Shown here: piece by piece, positions 8,469 through 43,588 of the stretch
How the letters are laid out: every line of letters starts with the position of its first letter
How positions within the stretch are numbered: position 1 is the first letter of the stretch
Source of the DNA: an uncultured Bacteroidaceae bacterium
GTDB taxonomy: Bacteria; Bacteroidota; Bacteroidia; Bacteroidales; Bacteroidaceae
Direction of reading: 5' to 3'
Assembly: GCA_905234125.1 (NCBI GenBank)
Contig: CAJOGQ010000007.1
Span: forward strand, 1 to 43,733
Length of the DNA stretch: 43,733 bases
Notes under the pieces: generated by a model
Databases searched by the model: none
The model's input: only the letters and a program-made list of their open reading frames with translations
What the model was told of the DNA's origin: nothing
Translations under genes and position numbers: made by a program

Positions 8469-9221
8469 CTATCCTCGTGGCGACATGAAAGGAGTCTCGG
8501 TGAGTCCACCATAGCTATCTGCGGCTCTCTCCAAAGCATCCTGAGTGGTATATTGTTGGTACAACGTGCAGCGAGTGACGATGGTTTGTGGCGAACAGCG
8601 GTTGTCCATCACCTTTACCAATGCCCAGCCTTTCATCTCGTCGGCAAACTCTTCGCCCACGAGTGCCAGACGACCATCCTCCACAATCATATCATTCCAC
8701 CACGATACCTCGCGCATGCTGAACCGTACACGTGGCAAGTCCCCATTCTGTATGGTCTGCACGGCTGTATAAAGTCGCAATTTCGCATGCTGCATTCGGT
8801 CGCCTTCCTTCAGATCGGTCAGTAACGCAGGCATACCATCTACTTCGCCCAACTCCAGCTTCACCGTCGGCAGTACTCCATCGCTCATCGGAATGCCGGG
8901 CATCAGAAACGATGCATGATTCATCATTCCGTCGTCAGGTACAAACACCGCAGGCAATTGGTTCGCCAGCGATGCGAAATTCTGAAAGGCCGTCCGACGC
9001 TCCGTGAACATCATGTCGCAATCCCGCAGCATCTTCCATAGTGCCGTCGTGTGCCGCATCTTCTGCCGCTGCACAAACTGCGGCAGTGTGTTGCTACGCT
9101 TCTCGTGTGTGGAAGACTCTCGTCCGATCACTTGTCCGTTACGCAGGTAAAAAGTTATTCCTGCAAAACGCATCCTCTTGGGAATCGTCATTCCCAACCC
9201 TGTGCTGTCTTTCTTCTTCAT
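8469..9221 (-). CDS. Conserved Prevotella-type protein of unknown function
   Basis: This 250-residue protein has no recognised catalytic motif, signal peptide or membrane segment. It begins with a basic stretch (MKKKDSTGLGMTIPKRMRFA), continues with a Gln/Arg/His helix (FVQRQKMRHTTALWKM) and ends with WALVKVMDNRCSPQTIVTRC and a YGGLTETPF tail. I recall similar proteins occurring in several copies in Prevotella genomes, but assign no function. An AGGAG lies 12 bases before the ATG. Its promoter appears to be at 9569-9599, giving a leader of about 340 nt that carries the 11-bp repeat array. A second array locus at the right end of the window has no such gene beside it. Confidence 0.7.
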   Translation of the reverse strand: MKKKDSTGLGMTIPKRMRFAGITFYLRNGQVIGRESSTHEKRSNTLPQFVQRQKMRHTTALWKMLRDCDMMFTERRTAFQNFASLANQLPAVFVPDDGMMNHASFLMPGIPMSDGVLPTVKLELGEVDGMPALLTDLKEGDRMQHAKLRLYTAVQTIQNGDLPRVRFSMREVSWWNDMIVEDGRLALVGEEFADEMKGWALVKVMDNRCSPQTIVTRCTLYQQYTTQDALERAADSYGGLTETPFMSPRG

Positions 9222-9328
9222 TGTTCTTTTCTCCTATATTTAATTCATTATAATGATATACATGTTATAGACCTCTCATATCTCTCTCCATTGCTTCTCA
9301 TGCTGACCTCCACTCTACCTATACCTTA

Positions 9329-9515
9329 GCTCCGGTCTTGCTCCGATGTTCCTCCCATTCTTGTCCGCTACTTGTTCGCTATATGCTCGGTACTTGTCCG
9401 GTCAAACACCGAACATCTACCGGACAAGTACCGGACATCTACCGAACATAAATGGGAGATAACCCCTCGCTGCATCCTTGTTACATTGGAGCTGCTTACT
9501 GGTTATATTGGAGAT
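9329..9515. repeat. 11-bp phased mosaic repeat array, left locus
   Basis: From 9329 the plus strand splits into 11-bp units with no slippage. Eleven consecutive units up to 9449 carry CCG, TCG or CCC at positions 4-6. Examples are GCTCCGGTCTT, GCTCCGATGTT, TGTCCGCTACT, CTACCGGACAA, GTACCGGACAT and CTACCGAACAT. Units in the left half read as TTGTCCGGTA-like and those in the right half as their reverse complement, so the array is also an imperfect palindrome. In the same phase the series continues to ACATTGGAGCT (9483) and ATATTGGAGAT (9505). The anchor TAAATGGGAGATAAC sits at 9449-9463. Eleven is not a multiple of three, so this is not a coding repeat. Confidence 0.8.
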
Positions 9516-9568
9516 GTTCTATTGAAAAATATGAGATTGTCTGTACTTAAACTTTGGCTTTCACATTG

Positions 9569-9599
9569 CAAATTTACGCCTTTTTTCTGACATACACAA
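9569..9599 (-). promoter_or_regulatory. Promoter reading through the 11-bp array into 8469-9221
   Basis: The minus strand has TTG (9597-9599), a 20-bp spacer and TAAATTTG (9569-9576) followed by CA. The transcript would start near 9562, cross the array, and reach the ATG at 9221. Confidence 0.6.
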
Positions 9600-43039: not shown

Positions 43040-43094
43040 TTAATTAATTCAAATCATCAAATGAATTAATTCAATCGATGATTTGAATTAATTC
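43040..43094. repeat. 11/22-bp alternating AT-rich array B with perfect palindrome
   Basis: Five 11-bp units: TTAATTAATTC, AAATCATCAAA, TGAATTAATTC, AATCGATGATT, TGAATTAATTC. The flanks form a perfect 17-bp inverted repeat (43042-43058 with 43077-43093). It is too symmetrical and lacks a T-run, so it is not a terminator. Confidence 0.8.
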
Positions 43095-43229
43095 ACGGTT
43101 TTCCATTCCTTTCCACTCATCGGGAATACTGACACGAACCTTACCGACGGAACGGGTGACGAGGTGGGCACTTCGGCCTTCCTTTGACGTACCTTCGATT
43201 TAGCTTTAGGTTCATCACCCCTTGCAGAT

Positions 43230-43383
43230 CCATCGCTATCCCATCGCCACTCCATCGATGGGTCTTGGTCACCCCCTTGGTAAATGGGAGTTAACTCGGA
43301 GGAAACCCAAGGGTGCTATAGACTTGGTATAGAGTTGGTATAGCCTTAGTATAGAGTTGGTATAGAGATGGTGTTGGGGTGCT
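43230..43383. repeat. 11-bp mosaic repeat array C/D
   Basis: Fourteen 11-bp units in one unbroken phase, with adjacent units alike in small groups: CCATCGCTATC, CCATCGCCACT, CCATCGATGGG; TCTTGGTCACC, CCCTTGGTAAA; TGGGAGTTAAC, TCGGAGGAAAC; CCAAGGGTGCT; ATAGACTTGGT, ATAGAGTTGGT, ATAGCCTTAGT, ATAGAGTTGGT, ATAGAGATGGT; GTTGGGGTGCT. The anchor TAAATGGGAGTTAAC (43281-43295) differs by one base from that of the left locus. Confidence 0.8.
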
Positions 43384-43439
43384 TTGGAAACTATGGCTTC
43401 CTGAATATGAATAATATGGAATCCATATTTTTCCGGGTG

Positions 43440-43470
43440 CAAAGTTACACTTTTTTATGGGTGATATCAA
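43440..43470 (-). promoter_or_regulatory. Consensus minus-strand promoter reading into array C/D
   Basis: The minus strand has TTG (43468-43470), a 20-bp spacer and TAACTTTG (43440-43447) followed by CA. No protein gene lies downstream on this strand before clpC, which is on the other strand, so the product would be a noncoding transcript of up to about 600 nt. Confidence 0.6.
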
Positions 43471-43527
43471 GCTTTTCGGGAAAAATTTCACTTGCTTCTC
43501 TCGATTTTTCCTCTCTCCATTTTTTGG

Positions 43528-43588
43528 GGAGTGCACTCCATATCTTTTTTCTCTGCATTGGAAAAAGTTTTTCTGTGCAGAGAAAAAA
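43528..43588. repeat. Two perfect palindromes before the window end
   Basis: GGAGTGCACTCC (43528-43539) is a 12-bp palindrome. A 13-bp inverted repeat follows: TTTTTTCTCTGCA (43545-43557) with TGCAGAGAAAAAA (43576-43588), and its loop holds GAAAAA-G-TTTTTC. Both strands would end the hairpin in A, not U, so it is not an intrinsic terminator. It may be a protein-binding site. Confidence 0.6.

Follow-up and report, generated by a model that had tools for sequence, protein, structure and literature searches.

What is a stretch of DNA that keeps an exact eleven-base rhythm while its letters change? The question is raised by positions 43230–43383 of the window, that is, the whole 43,733-nucleotide contig CAJOGQ010000007.1 of assembly GCA_905234125.1 from an uncultured Bacteroidaceae bacterium (contig C7 of a 2.7 Mb draft genome in 107 contigs; other contigs of this genome are numbered in the same way). 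An earlier note, made from the sequence alone, described 14 units in one unbroken 11-bp phase whose sequence drifts stepwise, as repeated local duplication would leave, and proposed that the spacing itself is selected. Our analysis identifies the array as the leader of an uncharacterized bacterial gene family (DUF6266; PF19781); many leaders of that family with unrelated letters keep the same rhythm, so the spacing itself may be what matters.

We first asked whether the periodicity is real, and the observation in the note stands. The identities at lags 11, 22, and 33 are.573,.530, and.463; lags 11, 22, 33, 44, 66, and 55 are the six best of lags 1–69. The mean identity at lags 11/22/33 is.522, compared with.251 ±.022 in dinucleotide shuffles (z 12.3); none of 5000 shuffles scores as high, and none of 1000 reaches the best single lag in the range 5–39. 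The note had named equal scores for randomized sequences as an outcome that would refute it; randomized sequences do not score equally well. The recurrence of CCAAGGGTGCT and GTTGGGGTGCT ‘six units apart’ is present, but it is one loose match and was not assessed on its own. The note's ‘first array’ (9320–9515) is equally strong (z 13.5).

We then asked on which strand the array is read and to which unit it belongs. Read on the minus strand, the array stands just behind TTG-N20-TAACTTTGC, a Bacteroidota-type promoter, as a 5′ leader; the note missed this promoter, as well as the gene family and the strand polarity. The features of the window are as follows:

43230–43383, minus strand: the 11-nt mosaic array (14 units); the sense units run ACCATCTCTAT / ACCAACTCTAT ... 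GATAGCGATGG.
43173–43506, minus strand: promoter plus leader, homologous (82% identity by BLAST) to the leader that precedes the DUF6266 gene in the copy in contig C29.
43468–43470, minus strand: TTG of the −33 element, 20 nt before the −7 box.
43439–43447, minus strand: the −7 box TAACTTTGC, the same in the copies in contigs C65, C36, and C29, and TACCTTTGC in the same-genus genomes G018 and G037.
43108–43161, minus strand: a scrap of the 3′ part of the lost DUF6266 gene, next to the leader (a deletion remnant), 85% identical to positions 1036–1089 of the C29 locus (L004), inside its DUF6266 ORF (566–1108).
43042–43095, no strand assigned: a further 22-nt (2 × 11) palindromic array beyond the gene scrap, with a counterpart in the copy in contig C78; whether it belongs to the unit was not established.
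9320–9515, minus strand: the first 11-nt mosaic array, the leader of the P0001 gene, with inverted arms.
9419–9448, minus strand: the 5′ arm of the inverted array of the first leader.
9373–9402, minus strand: the 3′ arm of the inverted array of the first leader.
9568–9576, minus strand: the −7 box TAAATTTGC of the first leader.
8469–9221, minus strand: P0001, 250 aa, a distant relative of DUF6266.

Five more copies or parts of the leader are located in the same draft genome: C36 (92% identity), C65 (87%), and C29 (82%), with parts in C1 and C78. In C29, where the 11-nt phase can be followed by eye close to the start codon, the leader runs into an open frame of 180 aa whose protein matches DUF6266 with 56.4 bits (cut-off 23.4); the family match runs over a stop, so that frame ends early. 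In G037 and G018, the same leader (75% and 73% identity, respectively) directly precedes an open DUF6266 frame of 202 aa, and both proteins score over the cut-off. The window copy itself does not hold the gene: its homology to C29 covers only the promoter and leader and the 54-bp scrap, so the array is an orphan leader. The palindromic array beyond the gene scrap differs in sequence between the window and the copy in C78: the window reads AATTAATT three times and C78 (locus L011, about 1781–1834) reads AGTTAACT three times, that is, all three units changed in concert and on both palindrome arms. In C36 (locus L002, about 1775–1868), the gene-less leader is likewise followed by another 11/22-phase palindromic array (GAGCCGGTGGCTCAAGGGCGTT). 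Closer to the contig end, the window contains an imperfect palindrome, TTTTTTCTCTGCA...TGCAGAGAAAAAA (43546–43588).

The first array precedes P0001, a protein with no Pfam, NCBIfam, or convincing PHROG match. P0001 does not reach the DUF6266 family score, and none of the eight members of its alignment (P0001 and seven relatives) matches any family at E ≤ 1; the relationship to DUF6266 is seen only by profile comparison (probability 88.7%, E 2.6e-6). The named relatives of one of the window's genes are found largely in ruminant-gut Prevotella and other Bacteroidales draft genomes, from which we infer that the host is very probably of that kind. A search of Rfam 15 identified only two tRNAs in the window and nothing at the arrays, and a sigma-70 promoter scan, which does not cover Bacteroidota promoters, gave no more than chance.

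To determine whether the rhythm is a family trait, we scored the 400 nt before each gene for every period from 7 to 20, with.44 as the threshold. Of 79 relatives of P0001 in named genomes, 78 pass at period 11, whereas other periods reach 0–2 of 79 and period 11 downstream reaches 0 of 78; these loci are from the best 80 of 142 relatives, with L224 omitted (too little upstream DNA), and the single failure is L220 (.424). Of 85 DUF6266- and P0001-type loci from the order (L078 and L029 were omitted for the same reason), 37 pass at period 11, that is, 24 of 71 DUF6266 and 13 of 14 P0001-type; any other period gives 0 or 1 of 85, and period 11 gives 0 of 70 downstream and 0 of 85 in gene bodies. 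Thus, 47 of 71 DUF6266 loci do not pass; this count of arrays is somewhat low, because L056 is scored as lacking an array although an 11-nt array with CGAAG cores (about 810–930) lies about 600 nt before its DUF6266 gene, outside the 400 nt scored (beyond that gene, at about 2250, L056 also has strong period-8 repeats similar to AAAGTGGC). L018/L019 and L137/L138 are near-copies. Of 20 DUF6266 loci taken from 33 hits outside the order, five pass at period 11 and two at period 10. Unit sequences look unrelated between DUF6266 lineages, while the P0001 family shares a core near TGTnCGGT in the 5′ arm and its complement in the 3′ arm.

In 444 kb of the same genome, period-11 islands occur only at these leaders (the window twice, C18, and a truncated one at the end of C19), apart from one coding false positive (L111:3895); this sample is not random, because stretches of C18 and C14 were selected for containing P0001 relatives. 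Contig C19 begins inside a P0001-type array (L114:1–130), and several contigs end near such leaders, perhaps because repeats break the assembly. One further island, L011:4707, is A-rich low-complexity DNA. No island is found in 226 kb of a genus-mate without DUF6266 or P0001 hits; the 371 kb of flanks of the 80 named loci contain three, all at or beside leaders. Strong 7- and 14-nt tandem repeats, unrelated to the 11-nt arrays, occur in both genomes sampled from this genus (L097:786, L132:9098; e.g., GTTTAGAGTTGAGG in contig C1).

How exact is the period, and where does it begin and end? In 78 P0001-family leaders, the pooled identity is.526 at lag 11 but.265 at lag 10 and.261 at lag 12, and.472 at lag 22 but.269 at lag 21 (baseline.262); it falls with distance (.399 and.353 at lags 33 and 44) and is still.295 at lag 121. 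The 24 DUF6266 arrays show the same shape, although weaker (lags 10, 11, 12, 21, and 22:.288,.436,.276,.293, and.388; baseline.276). The spectra of single arrays are noisier, with blurred peaks (medians 11.19 and 10.72; only 35 of 78 and 2 of 24, respectively, fall within 10.8–11.2). The −7 box TAnnTTTGC is found in 42 of 77 P0001-family upstream regions of 420 nt, never nearer than about 160 nt to the gene; the box also occurs in 26 of 76 downstream controls, so the box alone proves little, but the periodic signal is near background before it (.26–.31) and rises after it (.37 from 22 nt on, up to.53). The last 33 nt before the start codon still match the sequence 11 and 22 nt upstream (.42–.43 compared with.31 at other lags). 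The periodic stretch therefore coincides roughly with the untranslated leader, although no transcript was measured. An SD-like motif at −20 to −5, thought to be unusual in Bacteroidota, is present upstream of 52 of 78 P0001-family genes, compared with 2 of 24 and 3 of 45 in DUF6266 leaders with and without an array, respectively.

Many of the leaders also contain inverted arms. We examined 103 leaders, which are not a random sample (78 named P0001 loci plus 25 leaders selected among those with arrays); in 90 of these (78 of 85 P0001-type and 12 of 18 DUF6266) an ungapped inverted repeat scores 14 or more, whereas none of the 103 shuffle controls (the mean of five column shuffles each) and 5 of 89 downstream stretches do. 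The 3′ arm is the more purine-rich in 78 of 78 P0001-type and 10 of 12 DUF6266-type leaders with such arms. Predicted RNA folding is better than chance over the set (median z −3.3 of 103, and −3.2 against a null that keeps the 11-nt column make-up), but mismatches in the arms show no clear wobble preference (260 G-U, 223 A-C). The first array of the window has strong arms (score 22; 0 of 200 column shuffles as high); the array at 43230–43383 has no significant inverted repeat (score 10; 25 of 200 as high), and neither it (z −1.15) nor the leaders of its sisters in C29, G037, and G018 (z.44, −.44, and −1.84) fold unusually well. L016 and L017 have weak arms.

The note had also specified that indels between strains should almost always be of 11 or 22 bp if it was correct, with random lengths counting against it; we therefore examined how related arrays differ in length. 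In five copies of the array at 43230–43383, the in-array length differences are about 21 nt at the 5′ edge (C29) and 11 nt (G037); the other gaps are located at or before that edge. Across 23 disjoint pairs of leaders, 14 of 29 array events are multiples of 11, compared with 37 of 338 for simulated random-length indels (binomial p 5e-7 against the simulated rate) and 2 of 11 outside arrays; over 90 overlapping pairs the count is 95 of 158. Of the 23 pairs, 22 are P0001-type, that is, of the first array's family; the one DUF6266 pair (G037/G018) has a single event, a net 7 nt at the edge of the array, counted as outside. These pairs were restricted to 78% or more identity and at most seven events, with neighboring gaps merged, and this filter was chosen after a first comparison of 39 disjoint pairs at 72% or more, in which pairs of low identity gave meaningless gap lists and 28 of 225 gaps of 4 nt or more were multiples of 11, no better than the simulation (22 of 177). 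In another set of 15 pairs, 7 of 16 gaps of 4 nt or more inside arrays and 5 of 38 outside are multiples of 11 (Fisher p.03), and indels of 1–3 nt number 15 per 284 substitutions inside and 36 per 347 outside (Fisher p.04), about half as many. The indels are thus enriched for whole units but are not ‘almost always’ 11 or 22, and about half of the array events are not multiples of 11.

Taken together, these results partly support the interpretation in the note: both tests that it had named come out mainly in its favor, and selection on spacing is supported by the same exact period in leaders of unrelated sequence and by about half as many 1–3 nt indels inside arrays, but neutral unit turnover is not excluded. 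Its suggestion of DNA curvature is not supported: the lag profile gives a period of 11, not 10.5, and A4/T4 tracts occur at.59 per 100 nt in P0001-family arrays compared with 1.76 in DUF6266 leaders without an array (DUF6266 arrays, at 1.94, are not poor in them); no curvature model was run. On a tree of 70 DUF6266 proteins, the presence of an array requires 13 changes (at least 11 forced by well-supported branches), compared with 20.1 when shuffled (0 of 500 shuffles as low), so arrays are partly inherited but often lost, decayed below threshold, or gained.

The sequences themselves establish the anatomy, that is, a unit of promoter, 11-nt mosaic leader, and DUF6266-type gene in which the period is kept from just after the promoter box (where one was found) to the start codon while unit sequence turns over, most P0001-type and about two thirds of the DUF6266-type leaders examined have a pyrimidine-rich 5′ arm and a purine-rich 3′ arm, and length changes are enriched for multiples of 11. 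The mechanism is our inference, and we propose it only tentatively: the leader would act as a gene-specific, multivalent recognition track in the nascent or finished transcript, with one recognition core per 11 nt (one turn of an A-form helix, or one protein footprint, either of which fits the exact 11 better than relaxed B-DNA). Paralogues in one genome have different units (e.g., the loci of genome G168, or P0001 compared with C18 and C29), and relatives in other genomes keep theirs, so a reader of the sequence should travel with the gene; the gene's own product, perhaps through its N-terminal part, is the simplest candidate, setting its own expression. In this view, units are gained and lost by whole-unit slippage, and selection on spacing keeps the phase. 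Binding of the product to its leader was not measured; the only hint is weak, in that array-unit distance follows protein distance, somewhat more for the N-terminal 80 residues (partial r.287) than for the rest (.160), a difference that is not significant (100 of 1000 permutations). No function is known for DUF6266 (the Pfam description names none), and no nucleic-acid-binding domain was recognized: the structure model (pLDDT 88.9) predicts a small N-terminal part with helices and a C-terminal FnIII fold, the matches at the head of the PDB list are FnIII domains and similar beta-sandwich parts, and a viral structure library gave FnIII-type hits and one uncharacterized viral protein (E 9.9e-5). 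The P0001 model is poor (pLDDT 53.5) and was not searched. In genome G134, a 491-aa protein with an N-terminal DUF6266 part and an InlB B-repeat-like end follows a DUF6266 gene (L235:7821–9296).

The main rival, which we consider doubtful but not far behind our own model, is a neutral minisatellite leader: an ancestral 11-nt tandem array is inherited with the gene, slippage adds and removes whole units, point mutations make the units drift, and the period survives only because slippage works in unit multiples. The enrichment of 11-multiples among indels, the greater likeness of neighboring units, and the clustering of arrays on the DUF6266 tree agree with this explanation; period 11 in leaders of unrelated sequence with other periods almost never seen, the reduced frequency of 1–3 nt indels, the inverted arms (not expected from slippage), the constant purine polarity, and the confinement between promoter box and start codon speak against it. 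A structured RNA, in which a long hairpin presents the same face at each 11-bp turn (one turn of A-form RNA) and structure rather than a protein track controls translation or stability, agrees with the folding scores and the inverted arms; however, G-U is not clearly preferred over A-C, the periodic part continues to the ATG, and some leaders have weak arms. The array at 43230–43383 and its sisters also do not fold unusually well, and we regard this explanation as unlikely.

A DNA-level array, that is, phased sites for a DNA-binding protein or a bending/supercoiling signal with one site per helical turn, is also unlikely. Sites occur in both orientations, and a weak 11-bp bias in bacterial genomes is commonly linked to supercoiled DNA (PMC4132750), but lags 10 and 21 are near background whereas relaxed B-DNA has about 10.5, the arrays lie behind the promoter box and show strand polarity, and P0001-family arrays have few A-tracts. 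Least likely is a mobile element in which the unit is a transposon or an integration hot spot and the array its iteron or end. Several copies are present in one genome at 82–92% identity, some without the gene and several near contig ends; however, the copies end at different points on both sides, and no common terminal inverted repeat or target duplication was seen by eye, without a formal search, so a classical transposon is not shown but is not excluded either. Searches with the G037 protein in plasmid and phage collections, and with the P0001 alignment or one core DUF6266 protein in viral contigs, gave no hits.

We compared the leaders with the closest known systems. Minisatellite/VNTR arrays in leaders share head-to-tail units and changes in whole units (here only about half of events), but the units here are not homogeneous (neighbor identity.44–.57), they flip orientation, and unrelated arrays share one exact period. 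Iteron arrays of replication origins and phased operator arrays have repeated sites spaced by about one or two helical turns, whereas the arrays here are behind the promoter box, exactly 11, and not conserved in sequence between lineages (a Rep gene was not specifically sought). TRAP-type leader RNAs, with repeated triplets bound by a multimeric protein, would provide the analogous logic of evenly spaced short recognition cores in a transcript leader, although with different spacing, host group, and protein family; homology was not examined. The genome-wide 11-bp periodic bias (PMC4132750, PMC1242344, PMC516772) shares the nominal period but is a statistical bias spread over whole genomes, reported as mainly ApA/TpT in E. 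coli, and not discrete arrays tied to one gene family. We found no paper on DUF6266 or on 11-nt mosaic leaders in this group among open-access PMC articles. It is possible, although we consider it doubtful, that these leaders represent a new class of cis element whose conserved information is a spacing of exactly 11 nucleotides rather than a sequence: each DUF6266-type gene would carry its own transcript-borne track of 11-nt sites, sequence and reader would diverge together, and the paralogues of one cell would thereby ignore each other. If so, selection can hold a rhythm while letting the letters go, in leaders across a bacterial class, and an uncharacterized, often multi-copy protein family gains a testable function as the reader of its own leader; if the neutral explanation is correct, these leaders are still an unusually clean natural record of whole-unit slippage. 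The period also provides a search handle, because it points to members that the family model misses, such as P0001.
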